From assembly GCA_024330185.1 (NCBI GenBank), contig JANDLV010000036.1:1-41667 (forward strand): a stretch of DNA of 41,667 bases, given 5' to 3'. The translations under genes and the position numbers were made by a program. Of this stretch, positions 31,384-38,353 are shown in pieces. A model generated the notes under the pieces. It was not told where the DNA came from, ran no database searches, and saw nothing but the letters and a program-made list of their open reading frames with translations. Every line of letters begins with the position of its first letter. The first letter of the stretch is position 1. Source of the DNA: Candidatus Siliceabacter maunaloa. Lineage in GTDB: Bacteria; Actinomycetota; Thermoleophilia; Solirubrobacterales; Solirubrobacteraceae.

Positions 31384-32787
31384 TCACTTGCCGCGAGCGC
31401 GCCGAGTTCGCGTGGTGGGCCAGCGCGGATGGTGGAGGTCGATGTGGACGGTGTGCGCGTGGACTTGGTGGGGGTGGCGGTGGGGGTGGGAGTGTGCGTG
31501 GGCGCCCGCGGCCTCGCCGGGCGGGTGATCGTGGCGGTGGTGGTCGTCGTGCACGTGTGTGTGGTCGTGCTCGTGGGGCTCGTGCGTGTGCTCCATCACG
31601 TCGGCCTCGTGGGCCGGCCAGGCTCGTGTCGCGACGAGCAGCGCCACGGCGGCCACCGCGCCCAGCAGCGCGGAGGTCACGGGGAGACCCAGCGCGACCC
31701 CCACGAGCCCGGCGAACGGGTAGGTGACAAGCCAGCAGGCGTGCGAGAGCGAGAACTGCGCCGCGAACAGCGCGGGCCGGTCCGTAGAGCCGGCCGACCG
31801 CTGCAGCAGTCGGCCGGCGGGGGTCTGCACGAGCGACAGGCCGACGCCCAGCACGAACCAGACGGCGAGCAATGCACCGAAGCTCGGCGTCAGCGCACCC
31901 AGCGCGAGCCCGGCGCCGATCAGCCCTCCGCCGGTGAGCATGACGGGACGGTCGTTCACCCGGTCAAGCACCGCGGGCAAGGCAAGCGCGGCGATCATCG
32001 CCCCGGCGCCCGAGGCCCCGAACGCCACGGCCACCTCGCTGCCGCCGCGCCCGAACAGGTCCCGCACGTAGACCACCGTGTTGACGATGATCATCGCGCT
32101 GGCGGCGGCCACGGCGAGGTTCAACGCCAGCAGTCCGCGTAGCCGGGGGGTGGCGAGGTAGGCGCGCGTTCCGAAGGTCAGCTTTGCGAGCGGGCCTCCC
32201 GTCCTCTCGGACGCCGCAGCGTGAGGGAGCGTCACCGAGATCACCAGCAGCGCAGAGATCAGGAACCCTGCGCCGTTGGCCACGAACAGTCCGTCGTAGC
32301 TGATCACCGCCAGAGCCAGCGCGGCCAGCGCCGGGCTGAGCAGGTTCTCCAGCTCGTACGCCAGCCGCGACAACGACAACGCGCGGGTGTAGGACTGCTC
32401 GTCTTCCAGGATGTCGGGGATGGTCGCCTGGAAGGTCGGCGTGAAGCCGGCCGAGCAGGCGTTGAGGACGAAGATCAGCACGTAGACCTGCCAGACCTGG
32501 TCGACGAAGGGCATCAGGAGCACCACGCCGGCTCGCAGCAGATCGAGCGAGACCAGAAGGGGCCTACGCGGAAGGCGGTGGGCGAAGCTGGTGATGATCG
32601 GCGAGACCACCACGTAGGCCACCATCTTCAGGGCCAGCGCGATGCCGATCACAGCCCCCGCGTTGTCGCCCGCGAGGTCGTAGGCCAGCAGGGTGAGAGC
32701 GACCGTGGTCAGGCCCGTGCCGATCAGCGCGACGACCTGCGCTGCGAACAGCCGGCGATAGGTCGCATGCGCGAGGGGGCTCAGCAT
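31384..32787 (-). CDS. MFS exporter with His-rich C-terminus, NreB-like
   Basis: 467 residues. Twelve helices of the MFS type, with signature segments FAAQVVALIGTGLTTVALTLLAYDLAG and SFAHRLPRRPLLVSLDLLRAG. After the last helix (LLGAVAAVALLVATRAWP) comes a ~75-residue cytoplasmic tail containing about 23 His, for example HTHEPHEHDHTHVHDDHHRH and HAHSHPHRHPH. NreB nickel exporters have this same arrangement (12 helices plus a His-rich tail), so nickel or cobalt export is the best guess, with zinc possible. It lies 10 nt downstream of the P1B ATPase gene, in the same operon. Confidence 0.88.
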   Translation of the reverse strand: MLSPLAHATYRRLFAAQVVALIGTGLTTVALTLLAYDLAGDNAGAVIGIALALKMVAYVVVSPIITSFAHRLPRRPLLVSLDLLRAGVVLLMPFVDQVWQVYVLIFVLNACSAGFTPTFQATIPDILEDEQSYTRALSLSRLAYELENLLSPALAALALAVISYDGLFVANGAGFLISALLVISVTLPHAAASERTGGPLAKLTFGTRAYLATPRLRGLLALNLAVAAASAMIIVNTVVYVRDLFGRGGSEVAVAFGASGAGAMIAALALPAVLDRVNDRPVMLTGGGLIGAGLALGALTPSFGALLAVWFVLGVGLSLVQTPAGRLLQRSAGSTDRPALFAAQFSLSHACWLVTYPFAGLVGVALGLPVTSALLGAVAAVALLVATRAWPAHEADVMEHTHEPHEHDHTHVHDDHHRHDHPPGEAAGAHAHSHPHRHPHQVHAHTVHIDLHHPRWPTTRTRRARGK

Positions 32788-32797
32788 GCCGGTCGCG

Positions 32798-34603
32798 TCA
32801 GGTCGCGCGGCGACGGATGAGTCTGGCGGAGTTGGCGATGACCGGGATGGAGGACAGCTCGTGCAGCAGCGCGCCGGTGACCGGTGTGAGGATGCCGGGA
32901 ATGGTCAGTCCGACCGCGATGCCCAGCACGCCGAGCGAGAAGACGAGGTTCTGGCGTATGGCCTTCAGGGCGGCGCGGGAGAGGCCGAGCAGGTGGGGGA
33001 GGCGCGCGAGCTCGTCGGCGAGCAGGCTCACGTCGGCGGTTTCGATGGCCAGGTCGGTGCCCCCGCCGCCCATTGCCACGCCGACGTCGGCGACTGCGAG
33101 CGCGGGGCCGTCGTTGACGCCGTCGCCGACGAAGGCCACCCGCCGCCCCTCGGCCTGGAGCCCGCGCACGATCTCGGCCTTCTGGGCAGGCAGCACCTCG
33201 GCGTGGACCTCGGCGATCCCGAGCTGGGCCGCGATGCGCTGCGCGGTGGCCCGGTTGTCGCCGGTGATCAGCACGGTGCGCACCGCGAGCTCGGCGAGGC
33301 GGGCGATGACCGTCTCGGCATCGGGACGCAGCCCGTCCTGGAGGACGAGCAGGCCCGCGGGCCGCTCGTCCACGGCCACGGCGACCACGGTGGCGCCGGG
33401 CGCGGCAAGCTCGTCGGCCCGGGCGCGCAGCCGCGCGTCGAGCCCTATGCCCTGCTCGGCCAGCAGTTCCGGGCGGCCGACGACGATGCTCCGGCCGCCA
33501 CTTTGTGCGCGCACGCCGAGCCCGGGCAGGGCGTCGAAGTCCTCAGGCTCCGCGACGGTCAGCTCGCGCGCTCGGGCGCCGCGAACGATGGCCTGGCCCA
33601 GCGGGTGCTCGGAGAACGTCTCGGCGCTCGCCGCGTGGCGCAGCAGCTCAGTGTCGGCGAGCCCGTCGAGGACCACGGTCTGCACGAGCCGCGGCTCGCC
33701 GAGGGTGAGCGTGCCGGTCTTGTCGAAGCAGACGGTGTCCACCTTCTCGAGGGCCTCGATCGTGGCCCCCTTCTTGACCAGGCTCCCGCGGAGCGCTGCG
33801 TTGCCGATCGAGGCGACCAGCGCCGTCGGGGTGGCGAGCACCATCACGCAGGGGCAGAAGACGATGAGCATCGTGATCGCACGGGTGGGTTCGCCGGTGA
33901 CCTGCCAGAGCACGAACGCGAGCACGAGCGCAACCGGGGTGTAGAGCTTTGCGTAGCGGTCCAGCACGCGCTCTATCGGTGCCTTGGACTGCTGGGCGTC
34001 CTCGACCATCCGGCGGATCCGCCCCAGGGTCGTCTGTGCCCCGACCTTCGTGGCGCGGACCTCCAGCGTGCCCAGCGACGCGAGCGTGCCGGCGAACACG
34101 CCGTCGCCGGGACCGCGCTCGACGGGCATGCTCTCACCCGTGATCGCCGCCTGGTCGACCGAGGCGTTGCCGGCCACGACCTCACCATCGACCGCGATGC
34201 GCTCGCCGGGGCGCACACGCAGCACGTCGCCCACGAGCACCTCCTCCAGCGCGACGGCCCGTTCGCTTCCGTCGCGGCGCACGAGCACCCGGTCGGGCAG
34301 CAGGCCCGCCAGCGCGTCCAGGGCGCGGTCGGCCCGCGCGGCGACGAACTCCTCCAGCAGCCCGCCGGCGAGCAGCAGCACCGCGACGACCGCCGCGGCC
34401 GAGTACTGCTCGATCGCGATCGCCGCGATCGTCGCGAAGCTGACCGGGATGTCGGCGGTGAAGTCGCGCTCGCGGATCCCTTGGATCGCCGACCACCAGA
34501 TGTACGCCGAGCCCACCAACGCGGAGGCCAGGTAGGGCAGCGAACCGGTGTCGGCGGGGTCCTCGCTGGCGATCACGCCGCCGGGTCGATCGATGACCGC
34601 CAC
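32798..34603 (-). CDS. P1B-type heavy-metal-translocating ATPase, N-terminus uncertain
   Basis: 601 residues from GTG 34603. Actuator motif ITGESMPVERG, metal-binding CPC in FCPCVMVLATPTALVAS, phosphorylation site CFDKTGTLTLGEP, EHPLG (HP motif), GDNRAT and VGDGVNDGPALAVADVGVAMG are complete. The last helices carry HELSSIP instead of typical Zn/Cd (DxG) or Co (HEGGT) signatures, so specificity is open. Membrane coding continues in frame upstream (SFSGRYREFLLAPGTLFTLAAFLILI) back to about 34740 with CATCARG, but there is no ATG/GTG/TTG; only GTG 34709 exists, one frame off. Either the start is non-canonical or a one-base error lies near 34690. No heavy-metal-binding N-terminal domain is seen. 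Confidence 0.88.
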   Translation of the reverse strand: MAVIDRPGGVIASEDPADTGSLPYLASALVGSAYIWWSAIQGIRERDFTADIPVSFATIAAIAIEQYSAAAVVAVLLLAGGLLEEFVAARADRALDALAGLLPDRVLVRRDGSERAVALEEVLVGDVLRVRPGERIAVDGEVVAGNASVDQAAITGESMPVERGPGDGVFAGTLASLGTLEVRATKVGAQTTLGRIRRMVEDAQQSKAPIERVLDRYAKLYTPVALVLAFVLWQVTGEPTRAITMLIVFCPCVMVLATPTALVASIGNAALRGSLVKKGATIEALEKVDTVCFDKTGTLTLGEPRLVQTVVLDGLADTELLRHAASAETFSEHPLGQAIVRGARARELTVAEPEDFDALPGLGVRAQSGGRSIVVGRPELLAEQGIGLDARLRARADELAAPGATVVAVAVDERPAGLLVLQDGLRPDAETVIARLAELAVRTVLITGDNRATAQRIAAQLGIAEVHAEVLPAQKAEIVRGLQAEGRRVAFVGDGVNDGPALAVADVGVAMGGGGTDLAIETADVSLLADELARLPHLLGLSRAALKAIRQNLVFSLGVLGIAVGLTIPGILTPVTGALLHELSSIPVIANSARLIRRRAT

Positions 34604-34746
34604 GATGAGGATCAGGAAGGCGGCCAGCGTGAACAGCGTCCCCGGCGCGAGCAGGAACTCGCGGTAGCGCCCGGAGAAGCTGCGCGCCCCGCGCGCGCAG
34701 GTCGCACACGCGGCTCCGACCCGGGTGAGGGCAGTGACGTGACTAA

Positions 34747-34760
34747 TGAGCGTCCGTTCA
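34747..34760. promoter_or_regulatory. Candidate SmtB/CzrA-type operator TGAGCGTCCGTTCA
   Basis: The 14-mer TGAGCGTCCGTTCA at 34747-34760 is an imperfect palindrome (TGARCG-N2-CGYTCA). The SmtB/CzrA subfamily binds sites with a TGAA-N6-TTCA-type core. It is placed between the divergent arsR (start 34798) and the P1B ATPase, just upstream of the arsR -10 at 34785-34790, where a repressor could control both. On the minus strand TTGAAC (34756-34761) could serve as the -35 of the ATPase. Confidence 0.5.
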
Positions 34761-34784
34761 AGCTAGCAGCTCAGCCGATCAGGC

Positions 34785-34790
34785 TAGGAT
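34785..34790 (+). promoter_or_regulatory. -10 element (TAGGAT) of arsR, transcript probably leaderless
   Basis: TAGGAT at 34785-34790 ends 7 nt before the arsR ATG (34798), so the predicted transcription start is at the initiation codon. No Shine-Dalgarno is visible (TTCCGGC before ATG), consistent with a leaderless message. Confidence 0.45.
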
Positions 34791-34797
34791 TTCCGGC

Positions 34798-35172
34798 ATG
34801 GCGCACGGGGTCGAAGGAAAGCCGCCCCGGCCGGGGCACATCGACCCGGCGACCGCCGACGCGGTCGCCGTCACCATGCAGGCGCTCGCGACACCCAGCC
34901 GGGTGCGCATCCTCGGCCGCCTGCGCGAGGGAGCCTGCTCGGTCGGCGAGCTCGCCGCCTCGGTAGAGCTGGAGCCCTCCGCCGCCTCCCATCAACTCCG
35001 CTTGCTCCGCCATCTCGGGCTCGTGGTCGGCCAGCGCACCGGCCGCCAGGTCATCTACACGCTTCACGACGACCACGTCGGCGCACTTCTAGACGAGGCG
35101 ATCTTTCACACCGAGCACCTGCGCCTGGGCACGTCCCAACTCCCTCGGAGGTGGCAAGAGGGATCCGCCTGA
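34798..35172 (+). CDS. ArsR/SmtB-family metal sensor, CzrA-like alpha5 type
   Basis: 124 residues. Winged helix-turn-helix: TPSRVRILGRLREGACSVGELAASVELEPSAASHQLRLLRHLGLV. The alpha5 site is fully conserved: Asp91-x-His93, then His104 and His107 (DDHVGALLDEAIFHTEH), matching the D-x-H-x10-H-x2-H of CzrA zinc/cobalt sensors (SmtB has E at the last place). The alpha3 Cys motif of ArsR/CadC (ELCVCDL) is absent (ELAASVEL). It therefore most likely senses Zn, Co or Ni and derepresses the divergent ATPase-MFS operon. Confidence 0.9.
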   Translation: MAHGVEGKPPRPGHIDPATADAVAVTMQALATPSRVRILGRLREGACSVGELAASVELEPSAASHQLRLLRHLGLVVGQRTGRQVIYTLHDDHVGALLDEAIFHTEHLRLGTSQLPRRWQEGSA

Positions 35173-35692: not shown

Positions 35693-36142
35693 TCAGCGGC
35701 GATCGAGGCGTTCGGTGAGCTCGGCCACGTGGCGGGTGAGCTTGAGGTTCTCCTCGAGGAGCAGGTTGTAGTGCTCCGCGAGCGCGTCGCGATGGTGCTC
35801 GTCGAGCTCGGCCTGCGCGCGGTCGCGATCGGCCTGGCGGGTCTGTGCCAGCAGGATGAGCGGCGCGGCGTAGGCGGCCTGGGTGGAGAACAGGAGGTTG
35901 AGCAGGATGAACGGATAGGGGTCCCAGCGAAGGCTTACCGCCAGCCCGTTGAGTGCGATCCACACCACGACGAGCAGGGTCTGGCCCGCCAGGAAGCCAG
36001 GCGTTCCGAAGACGCGGGCGAAGCGCTCGGCCGCCAGGCCGAAGCGGTCGCTGCCAAACACCCCGTGGGGACCGGATCGGTGGCGCGGTGGAGCGCTCTG
36101 CTGTGGAGCGCTCGGGTCGGGATGGTCGTCGCGCGTGGGCAT
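35693..36142 (-). CDS. DUF1003 family membrane protein
   Basis: 149 residues. Two transmembrane helices (TPGFLAGQTLLVVVWIALNGL and DPYPFILLNLLFSTQAAYAAPLILLA) are followed by QTRQADRDRAQAELDEHHRDALAEHYNLLLEENLKL, a helical/coiled tail. PFILLNLLFSTQAAYAAPLILLA is the family signature. Function is unknown. An alternative start slightly downstream cannot be excluded because the first ~30 residues are disordered (SAPQQSAPPRHRSGPHG). No CTCATC repeat is found in front of it. Confidence 0.85.
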   Translation of the reverse strand: MPTRDDHPDPSAPQQSAPPRHRSGPHGVFGSDRFGLAAERFARVFGTPGFLAGQTLLVVVWIALNGLAVSLRWDPYPFILLNLLFSTQAAYAAPLILLAQTRQADRDRAQAELDEHHRDALAEHYNLLLEENLKLTRHVAELTERLDRR

Positions 36143-36223
36143 GCCTCGGCGCCATCATCGCCCAAGCCGGCTCCGCCCGTCGCTGCCGCGCGGTGCGTGG
36201 CCGTCAGGCTCGCGCCGCGCGCG

Positions 36224-36255
36224 CTCATCATGCTCTCATCCGCGCAACGCAGGGT
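36224..36255 (+). promoter_or_regulatory. CTCATC-repeat promoter of the OmpR-family regulator (site 2)
   Basis: CTCATC at 36224-36229 and CTCATC at 36235-36240, both perfect and 11 bp apart, followed by 9 nt and CAGGGT (36250-36255) as a weak -10. The start codon ATG is at 36263, so transcription would start on the codon itself. A site before the regulator's own gene implies autoregulation. Confidence 0.7.
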
Positions 36256-36262
36256 GCACGTC

Positions 36263-36952
36263 ATGAGAGTCCTGATCGTCGAAGACGAGGTGAAGATGGC
36301 CAGCCTGATCCGGCGCGGCCTGCGCGACGACGGCATGGCCGCGGACGTCGCGATCAGGGGCAAGGACGCTCTGTGGATGGCCGGCTCCACCGAGTACGAC
36401 GTGATCGTGCTCGATGTGATGCTGCCCGACATGGATGGGTTCGAGGTCTGCCGGCGCCTGCGCGAGGACGGCGTCTGGTCGCCGGTGCTGATGCTCACCG
36501 CGCGTGACGCGATCGACGATCGCGTGCGAGGCCTGGACACCGGCGCCGACGACTACCTGACCAAGCCCTTCTCCTTCGCCGAGCTGGCCGCTCGGTTGCG
36601 CGCGCTCGCGCGTCGCGGCCCGGTGGAGCGACCCACCGTGCTACGGCTCGGCGACCTGCACCTGGACCCCTCCTCCAAGCGTGTCTGGCGGGGCGAGACG
36701 GACATCAGCCTGTCGGCGAAGGAGTTCTCGCTGCTTGAGACCTTCATGCGCCGTCCCGGTGCCGTCCTCGACCGCTTCCAGCTCCTCGAGCACGCCTGGG
36801 ACGACGAGTACGAGAACCGCTCGAACGTCATCGACGTCTACGTGCGCTACCTGCGCGAGAAGGTCGATCGGCCCTTCGGCGTGGAGTCCATCGAGACCGT
36901 GCGCGGCGCCGGCTACCGGATGCGTGTCAAAGGCGGCCGCGGAGAGTCATGA
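36263..36952 (+). CDS. OmpR/PhoB-family response regulator
   Basis: 229 residues from ATG 36263. Receiver domain: VLIVEDEVKMASLIRRGL, phospho-acceptor Asp51 (VIVLDVMLPDMDGFEV), Thr79 (LMLTARD) and Lys101 (DDYLTKPFSFAEL). C-terminal winged helix: LRLGDLHLDPSSKRVWRGETDISLSAKEFSLLETFMRRPGAVLDRFQLLEHAWDDEYENRSNVIDVYVRYLREKVDRPFG with ETVRGAGYRM. OmpR/PhoB-type proteins bind direct repeats 10-11 bp apart, matching the repeats found in front of this and five other genes. The gene ends 6 nt inside the convergent histidine kinase gene. Confidence 0.93.
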   Translation: MRVLIVEDEVKMASLIRRGLRDDGMAADVAIRGKDALWMAGSTEYDVIVLDVMLPDMDGFEVCRRLREDGVWSPVLMLTARDAIDDRVRGLDTGADDYLTKPFSFAELAARLRALARRGPVERPTVLRLGDLHLDPSSKRVWRGETDISLSAKEFSLLETFMRRPGAVLDRFQLLEHAWDDEYENRSNVIDVYVRYLREKVDRPFGVESIETVRGAGYRMRVKGGRGES

Positions 36953-38353
36953 GCGCGTGACGGGCACCGCGGCGGGCTCGCGGGGGAGGTTGAGCCAGAC
37001 GTCGGCGCCGCCTTCGGTGGGGTTGCACGCTCCGACCGAGCCGTGATGGGCTTGGGCGACCGCGGCGACGATCGCCAGGCCGAGCCCCGCGCCTCCCCGT
37101 CCCCGCGCGGCGTCCCCGCGGGTGAAGCGCTCGAAGGCCGACTCGATGAAGTCGTCGGGGAAGCCGGGGCCGTCATCACGGACGTGCAGCTCGATGGCCT
37201 GGCCAATGGTGCGGGCGCTCAGCTCGATCGCGGTGCCCCCGTGGCGCAGGGCGTTGTCGACGAGGTTGCCCAGCGCCTGCTCGAGGCGTAGGGGATCGGC
37301 GCAAAGATCGACGTCGCCGGCCGCGACCACCCTCAGCTCGGCGCCGCGCTCGCCGGCGCGCCGCGCGAAGCGCTCGCGGACGCCGTCGAGCACATCGTCG
37401 ATCTGAACCTCCCCGGGTCGGATCGGAAGGCGACCCTGATCCGAGCGTGCTATGACGAGCAGGTCCTCGGCGAGCTGGACCAGGCGGTCGGTCTCCTCCC
37501 CCGCCGATCGCAGCGCGTCCTCGAGCTCGCCGGTCGAGCGGCCCCCGCGCAGCGCGAGCTCCAGCTCGGTCTTGAGGATCGCCAGCGGCGTGCGCAGCTC
37601 GTGGCTGGCGTCGGCGACGAAGGCCCGCTCCCGGTCGAAGGCGGCCTCCAGGCGTTCGAGCATGCCGTTGAGCGTCGTGCCCAGCCGGCCGATCTCGTCG
37701 TCCGCCGGGGAGACCGGCAGCCGCGCGCGAGGGTCGGCGGCCTGGATCGCCGCCGCCCGGCGGCGCATGCTGTCCACCGGACGCAGGGCAGCGGCCACCG
37801 CCAGGTACCCGGTCAGGCAGGCCAGCAGCAACGCGACCGGCCCGCCGACCAGCAGGAGGCCGCCGAGGTTGCGCAGCGCCTCCTCGCGCTCCTCAAGCGT
37901 GGCGCCCACGACCACGATCAGCCGGCGATCCTGCGCCCGTACCGGCGTGGCCAGCAACCGGACGGCCTCGTCCTCACCGGCGATCGCCTCCCGGTCGACG
38001 ATCACCGTCTCACCGACCTCGTCCGGGACTTGGCCGCCGGCGAGCAGCGCACGCCCCCGCACCCCCGGCGTGGCGTCCACGACCGCCCCGGACCTGTCGA
38101 GGATCTGTGCGAAGCTCTCTCCCTGCTCGGTGAGGGCGTCGTCTCCGGCCTCCTCGAGCCCGCTGTCGGCCTGCTCGATCAGCGCCGTCACGTCGCCGGC
38201 GCGCGAGCGCAGGCTCTGCTCGATGGTCGCGTCGAGCTCTGCGCCCAGGCGCAGGAAGAGGAACAGCCCCGTCGCCGTCAGCACGACCGCCATCACCCCC
38301 GCGAAGGCGAGGGTGACGCGCATGCGGACGGTCAGACGGCTCCAACGAGACAT
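36947..38353 (-). CDS. Sensor histidine kinase (HAMP-HisKA), tail-to-tail with its regulator
   Basis: 468 residues. Helix 1 (MRVTLAFAGVMAVVLTATGLFLFL, 11-34), a ~125-residue extracytoplasmic sensor (36-162), helix 2 (GGLLLVGGPVALLLACLTGYLAVAA, 164-188), HAMP, then the H-box FVADASHELRTPLAIL with His251. ATP-binding domain: LGNLVDNALRHG (N), VRDDGPGFPDDF (G1), FERFTRG (F) and GGAGLGLAIVAAVAQAHHG (G2). The sensor is acidic, with no Cys. The kinase is convergent with the regulator, overlapping by 6 nt, rather than in one operon, yet both have the same repeat promoter. Partnership is inferred from position. Confidence 0.92.
   Translation of the reverse strand: MSRWSRLTVRMRVTLAFAGVMAVVLTATGLFLFLRLGAELDATIEQSLRSRAGDVTALIEQADSGLEEAGDDALTEQGESFAQILDRSGAVVDATPGVRGRALLAGGQVPDEVGETVIVDREAIAGEDEAVRLLATPVRAQDRRLIVVVGATLEEREEALRNLGGLLLVGGPVALLLACLTGYLAVAAALRPVDSMRRRAAAIQAADPRARLPVSPADDEIGRLGTTLNGMLERLEAAFDRERAFVADASHELRTPLAILKTELELALRGGRSTGELEDALRSAGEETDRLVQLAEDLLVIARSDQGRLPIRPGEVQIDDVLDGVRERFARRAGERGAELRVVAAGDVDLCADPLRLEQALGNLVDNALRHGGTAIELSARTIGQAIELHVRDDGPGFPDDFIESAFERFTRGDAARGRGGAGLGLAIVAAVAQAHHGSVGACNPTEGGADVWLNLPREPAAVPVTRS

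Follow-up and report, generated by a model that had tools for sequence, protein, structure and literature searches.

Putative Nickel/Cobalt Efflux Cassette with an NmtR-Type Sensor and a P1B-Type ATPase of an Unassigned Subfamily in Candidatus Siliceabacter maunaloa

Gene Content of the Locus

Contig JANDLV010000036.1 of Candidatus Siliceabacter maunaloa (assembly GCA_024330185.1), a member of the Solirubrobacteraceae in the phylum Actinomycetota, was analysed over positions 1 to 41,667; this whole stretch is called the window in the following. An earlier note on this DNA had proposed a metal-efflux cassette beside a single ArsR sensor, and this proposal was borne out, since the three genes are present. 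The sensor gene (34798–35172, plus strand) codes for 124 residues of an ArsR/SmtB protein assigned to the NmtR type. Divergent from it lies the gene for a P1B-type ATPase (32798–34747, minus strand; 649 codons when counted from an ATT), which has a CPC motif in the fourth core transmembrane helix (33848–33856, minus strand) and, in the last transmembrane helix, the non-standard motif HELSS (32849–32863, minus strand), as the note had stated; both were located by an alignment of ATPases with this motif, termed HELSS ATPases here. Ten bases past the end of the ATPase gene (32798), and likewise on the minus strand, follows the gene for an exporter of the major facilitator superfamily (MFS; 31384–32787, 467 residues), which was placed in the NreB type by its match to Pfam MFS_1 and by its identity to proteins of Streptomyces mirabilis and Halomonas. 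As judged from sequence, known parts, i.e., a Ni/Co-type sensor and an NreB-type pump, are joined here with an ATPase of an unassigned P1B subfamily.

Sensor and Operator

The best match of the sensor among solved protein chains was NmtR of Mycobacterium tuberculosis (E 9e-35), followed by SmtB (7e-16) and CzrA (3e-14). CzrA is not the closest relative by sequence, and the label "CzrA-type", which the sensor had been given previously, is rejected on the basis of this match; the E-value with NmtR is lower by roughly 20 orders of magnitude, and the N-terminal His of NmtR is retained. The alpha5 ligand set Asp91, His93, His104 and His107 is present as described before, and His3, which had been overlooked, was found in addition (start MAH); the N-terminal HGVEG aligns with HGVEG of NmtR. 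Position 109 is Arg; NmtR carries His109. Of 38 related sensors, all have the motifs D-x-H and H-x2-H and 32 carry a His at position 3; the sensor of the orthologous locus L114 matched NmtR with E 5e-42. The nickel ligands of NmtR are the N-terminal amine, His3, Asp91, His93, His104 and His107 (PMC7055735). NmtR is responsive to nickel and cobalt and discriminates against zinc via the need for a six-coordinate site, and CzrA is selective for zinc and cobalt (PMC7689651). We infer that the sensor is of the NmtR type and would respond to nickel and cobalt.

The palindrome claimed for the divergent promoter was found at 34747–34760 (TGAGCGTCCGTTCA, no strand assigned) and reads TGAR-N6-YTCA. One of its bases also belongs to the inferred start codon of the ATPase, which the alignment with L114 puts at 34745–34747. 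The window by itself says little: it has two matches where 0.61 would be expected, and a count of two was reached in 14 of 100 shuffles, which is not clearly beyond chance. The relatives are more informative. From 38 loci with NmtR-like genes (the window, four further loci linked to HELSS ATPases, five on plasmids and 28 from the host class), regions reaching from 120 bases upstream to 15 bases into the gene were taken, with starts picked by a script; one duplicate pair is counted among them, L200 having the same DNA, over the 1,000 bases checked, as L132, the plasmid record of Miltoncostaea oceani. The strict pattern was present in 23 of the 38 regions (500 letter shuffles: mean 0.19, maximum 3), and the looser TGA-N8-TCA in 28 (mean 0.62, maximum 4). 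All five HELSS-linked sensors have the operator pattern, at −33 to −51. Conservation upstream of related sensors thus supports the element as the predicted operator. A scan for sigma-70-type promoters between 34600 and 34900 found none.

Start of the ATPase Gene

The ATPase frame is open to 34762, yet it contains no ATG, GTG or TTG ahead of 34603. In L114, where the starts of sensor and ATPase are 32 bases apart, an ATG stands at the position of an ATT in the window (34745–34747, minus strand; tgaacatccgctcATG in L114, tgaacggacgctcATT in the window). The start at 34603 from the list of open reading frames (ORFs) was rejected, since homology extends further upstream and the orthologue fixes the start; it would remove the first 48 of the 649 codons, and with them the greater part of the first membrane helix as well as the N-terminal C-x-x-C (CATC, 34697–34708, minus strand). 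This motif is kept in the actinobacterial relatives, as CLAC in L114, CATC in L140 and L141, and CAAC, read by eye from DNA, in L142. A frameshifted GTG start at 34709 was likewise discarded, since L114, L140 and L141 all match the CATC region in the frame used. ATT is a permitted but rare start codon, and the ATT in the window would be the ATPase start or else a mutated ATG.

ATPase Motifs and Subfamily

General P1B features, namely DKTGT, a CPx motif, and E1-E2 and hydrolase domains, were all found in the ATPase. It had been thought to lie outside the standard specificity classes, and indeed no motif set of P1B-1, -2, -4 or -5 fits. The last-helix motif of P1B-1 (Cu) is M-x-x-S-S; in the ATPase the SS is retained and His stands in place of Met. 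Instead of the SPC and HEG(S/G)T of P1B-4 (Co/Ni/Fe/Zn), CPC and HELSS are present, and the clade is a separate one. The pairing of TPC and QE..D, which we take to be that of P1B-5 (Nia type), was seen among the aligned rows and is absent from the ATPase. The set of P1B-2 (Zn/Cd/Pb), QN-x7-K in transmembrane helix (TM) 7 and D-x-G in TM8 (PMC4932525), is also lacking. P1B-6 and P1B6-like pumps have HN in the last helix, where the ATPase has HE; among them, CtpC, with CPC and HN, is a zinc exporter (PMC9374683). According to a paper of 2016, there had been no biochemical study of P1B-6 and P1B-7 pumps by then (PMC4932525). The helices of an AlphaFold2 model (53 rows; mean predicted local distance difference test score 86.5) could be read as the eight-helix P1B layout.

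A check of last-helix subgroups had been suggested earlier. When 159 P1B cores were placed in a tree, made by a quick method with Shimodaira–Hasegawa-like approximate likelihood ratio test (SH-aLRT) values as its only support, the 20 HELSS rows and L130, which is cut by a contig end, formed one group of their own (SH-aLRT 100), separate from the M..SS (Cu), D.G (Zn), HEG.T (P1B-4), QE..D and HNG groups. The branch uniting HELSS, HNxGS and a third group had a value of only 94. FCPCV was found in 14 aligned HELSS members, which have HELSS in common, and in the 20 HELSS tree rows. Full-length members numbered 22, i.e., five actinobacterial and 17 archaeal ones (L159 and L161 included, L130 left out; L034/L119 and L035/L116, two pairs of identical genes, were each counted once). 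By their sequences, HELSS ATPases form one subfamily, whose members come from a small number of Actinomycetota and from archaea in the phylum of the methanogen Methanoculleus.

This distribution was also evident from searches with the ATPase. Among the best 80 loci from a scan of 84,980 species, the top two were methanogens at 62% identity and the other 78 reached at most 42%; none of the matches listed for 60 relatives' genomes exceeded 48%. In the host class, two of 399 genomes passed E 1e-125, the window's own and G367 (65%). The host phylum sample yielded 27 of 396, namely the own genome, three at 68–69% and the rest at 49% or less. From the Methanoculleus order 15 of 199 genomes passed, nine of these at 54–64%, and from the sample of its phylum 20 of 392, 13 of these at 54–63%. 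Plasmid matches, among 5,000 listed, were all below 60% identity; on viral contigs 18 stretches fit a pattern, none of which codes for a relative. Among top-ranked titles of the mostly open-access literature, none dealt with an ATPase of the HELSS type or with a pump linked to cfb genes, which is not proof of novelty.

Two side observations concern the ATPases. The HELSS ATPase of G743 (L142, 1109–1687 and 1147–3060) appears to be split over two frames near the N-terminus, due to an assembly error or a frameshift. Archaea and Actinomycetota also have a distinct group of P1B pumps with FCPCA and HN(A/V)GS, possibly the CtpC-like class (L124–L127, L144, L145, L147, L149–L151, L154 and L167).

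The NreB-Type Pump

The MFS pump matches Pfam MFS_1 and reached 266.7 bits with TIGR00900, short of the cut-off of 319.6. It is 61% identical to homologues from Halomonas and Shinella, both of which adjoin genes annotated as "metal-sensing transcriptional repressor", the one from Shinella also having a nickel/cobalt efflux gene as neighbour. With an MFS protein encoded on plasmid pI of S. mirabilis the pump shares 56% identity over 437 aligned residues. That protein is probably the product of nreB of PMC9195940, although the locus tags differ between paper and record; it was taken as such because its gene is next to an ArsR gene, as nreB is by kmtR, and has nearly the stated length (448 codons annotated versus 444 residues given). 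The nreB gene of S. mirabilis raises nickel tolerance, and cobalt tolerance too, mostly more weakly (PMC9195940).

The His-rich tail, which had been described as about 75 residues with about 23 His, was confirmed: residues 393–467 (31387–31611, minus strand) contain 23 His in 75 residues. High identity to a presumably tested NreB and a His-rich C-terminal tail occur together. The last 75 residues hold 22 His in the Halomonas homologue, nine in that of Shinella and 11 in that of S. mirabilis; the end motif H..ID..H..WP is common to the window and Halomonas, and the end of the Shinella protein is similar. NreB relatives (E <= 1e-40) were found in four of 139 host-class genomes, including the window's; near the other three was a different ArsR-like frame, and the residues printed for them contained no His-rich tail. 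By this comparison the tail is a known trait of the NreB family and not general in the host class. No NreB-type protein was detected in G367 and two methanogen genomes, in a search without positive control.

Gene Neighbourhoods

All five actinobacterial HELSS members adjoin an ArsR gene whose product has the ligand set; the sensor gene is divergent in the window and in L114, and lies just upstream on the same strand in L140, L141 and L142. Five of the 17 archaeal genes (in L215, L217, L218, L219 and L221) are head-to-head with cfbA, at gaps of 254–598 bp, and cfbE, cfbD, cfbC and cfbB follow cfbA in these loci according to clustering. With curated cut-offs of NCBI, all five Cfb proteins of L217 passed, as did CfbA in the other four loci and CfbE in L215. 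The sixth member of the cfb-linked clade, L165, is near an Opp/Nik-type ATP-binding cassette (ABC) operon instead, of which one permease passed the nickel-permease cut-off (324.5 versus 300) and the other three scanned proteins failed. Six archaeal members (L034 with four near relatives, and L161) lie no more than about 5 kb from a CooC-like gene; the best solved match of the copy in L034 was CooC (E 7e-15). An ABC-3 metal permease and a His-rich cation diffusion facilitator (CDF) adjoin an actinobacterial HELSS ATPase (L203, 4099–6006), and in Methanoregula the HELSS gene likewise has a CDF of this kind as neighbour (L035, 726–1775).

NmtR-like sensors (E <= 1e-20) were present in 60 of 399 host-class genomes. 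Among 30 such loci from this class, 21 have a CDF nearby, two a HELSS ATPase (the window and G367) and seven a membrane protein with the motif HAxxPDHW. Five plasmid loci, from 102 plasmid records counted, were also examined. Four of them, on actinobacterial plasmids from Rhodococcus, Streptomyces F8, S. mirabilis and Gordonia, have an ATPase with the P1B-4 motifs SPC and HEGST encoded divergently from the sensor; on the plasmid of Miltoncostaea the sensor is followed by a CDF. The HAxxPDHW protein, of 220–270 residues, is paired with NmtR-like sensors in loci without CDF or ATPase (L188, L191, L192, L194, L195, L196 and L199; for example L199, 1933–2601). Four copies gave no Pfam match and one no NCBIfam match. 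The motif resembles the His/Asp motif of NiCoT-type transporters, and the protein could possibly be a nickel/cobalt transporter family not yet described.

Proposed Mechanism and Alternatives

We consider it probable that the genes form a cassette induced by nickel or cobalt, with an NmtR-type repressor acting at TGAR-N6-YTCA and two parallel exporters, and that the substrate of the HELSS ATPase is Ni(II) and/or Co(II). By binding the element where the ATPase gene begins, the repressor would block transcription of an ATPase–NreB operon, probably also of its own gene. Binding of Ni(II) or Co(II) at the N-terminus, His3, Asp91, His93, His104 and His107 would release it, and two exporters of the cytoplasmic membrane could then be made, namely the CPC/HELSS P1B-ATPase, driven by ATP, and the His-tailed NreB-type antiporter, presumably driven by protons. 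Actinobacteria are monoderm; since both pumps should thus lie in the cytoplasmic membrane, they are expected to work in parallel, and the suggestion of export in two steps is unlikely. In bacteria, the sensor and the partner pump point to nickel and cobalt; in archaea, the linkage to cfb genes speaks for nickel, or for control of cobalt.

Several findings weigh against this assignment. For 12 of the 17 archaeal members the DNA retrieved, in some cases only a short piece, showed no cfb gene, and the five cfb-linked members are close relatives, which perhaps reflects a single event. An ABC-3-type permease and a binding protein are near the archaeal L034, L117, L118 and L120; the sole model match of this binding protein was MntC, far under the cut-off. 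FeoAB is near L123. In the host class, NmtR-like sensors are mostly beside a CDF rather than an ATPase. The ATPase itself exceeds the cut-offs of both TIGR01512 (cadmium) and TIGR01511 (copper), so that these models do not single out a metal, and the best fold matches of its model were ZntA, CopA and a cadmium/cobalt-type P1B pump, with zinc and copper pumps on top.

Because the remaining HELSS neighbourhoods are mixed, zinc stays as a rival. A zinc or broad Zn/Co/Ni cassette, with a CzrA-like sensor and an ATPase exporting Zn(II), appears rather unlikely to us. It would fit the four alpha5 ligands, which are common to CzrA, the Zn/Mn-type ABC genes near several HELSS loci, the CDF that adjoins L140 and L035, the ABC-3 permease of L140, closest to zinc permeases though under the cut-off, and the sensor of L141, which is nearly equidistant from NmtR (6e-18) and CzrA (4e-17); the precedent would be CtpC, which exports zinc with CPC and a last-helix HN (PMC9374683). 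However, NmtR is by far the top match for the sensors of the window and of L114, the former retaining His3, NreB is a nickel/cobalt exporter, cfb linkage exists, and the HELSS clade is separate from the HNxGS and D.G (Zn-type) rows. That an ATPase for copper or another soft metal stands beside a Ni/Co sensor merely by chance seems highly improbable: it has CPC, an N-terminal C-x-x-C and SS as in copper pumps, passes the copper model cut-off and has copper pumps among its top fold matches, but 63 Cu-type rows and two others lie across a branch of support 100 from HELSS, the last-helix motif is without Met, and all five actinobacterial members are sensor-linked.

The rare ATT may mean a weakened ATPase gene. 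Decay of the ATPase by a change from ATG to ATT, leaving the NreB-type pump as the working exporter, is nevertheless very doubtful; while no in-frame ATG, GTG or TTG precedes 34603 and the ATT is at the position of the orthologue's ATG, the frame of 649 codons is otherwise open, its product is 69% identical to that of L140 over 582 core columns, and it keeps the residues that are invariant among the aligned members. ATT is permitted in general, and a sequencing error is conceivable.

The assignment to nickel and cobalt could perhaps be extended to HELSS ATPases as a whole, as a Ni/Co-handling P1B subfamily, in which the pump linked to cfbA sets the cytosolic Co:Ni ratio and the actinobacterial pump is a detoxifier under NmtR-type control; this extension is speculative and quite unlikely as it stands. 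In some methanogens the pump might, e.g., expel cobalt and thereby let the chelatase CfbA, whose preference in vitro is for cobalt, insert nickel into coenzyme F430. The classes of P1B pumps are defined by helix motifs, and for some of them no metal has been tested. The unassigned HELSS subfamily gains a specific and testable candidate substrate from two separate contexts, the Ni/Co-type sensor with the NreB-type pump in bacteria and the operon for the nickel cofactor F430 in archaea, and the pump encoded head-to-head with cfbA could be one component of Ni/Co control.

Surrounding Genes

Past the MFS gene are a CtaG-like and a GNAT gene, and past the sensor gene a DUF1232 gene. According to the ORF list, a frame for a small membrane-type protein and a pair of response regulator and sensor kinase lie 3' of the sensor (35693–38353); nothing ties these frames to the cassette. 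Scans of the window for Rfam families and tRNA gave no match.

Comparison with Known Systems

The system NmtR-nmtA (ctpJ) of M. tuberculosis is similar in that a sensor with His3, Asp91, His93, His104 and His107 controls the gene of a P1B ATPase (PMC7055735). As a P1B-4 pump, CtpJ has SPC and HEG(S/G)T (PMC7689651), in contrast to CPC and HELSS in the cassette, where the NreB-type gene is extra. NmtA and CtpJ are the same protein. CtpC of M. tuberculosis shares CPC and a His in the last helix with the cassette ATPase; it differs by HN for HE, by its partner PacL1 (DUF1490) and by its zinc substrate (PMC9374683). NreB of strain 31A, named in PMC9195940, is an MFS nickel exporter, as is expected for the cassette pump, which in contrast is encoded with an ATPase beside ArsR. 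In the nickel region of plasmid pI of S. mirabilis, as in the cassette, NreB, an NmtR-like sensor and a P1B ATPase occur in one neighbourhood, the NmtR-like/P1B-4 pair being one gene away from nreB; there, however, the ATPase has SPC and HEGST, and nreB is a separate unit beside KmtR. A His-rich C-terminus is also present in NreB of strain 31A.

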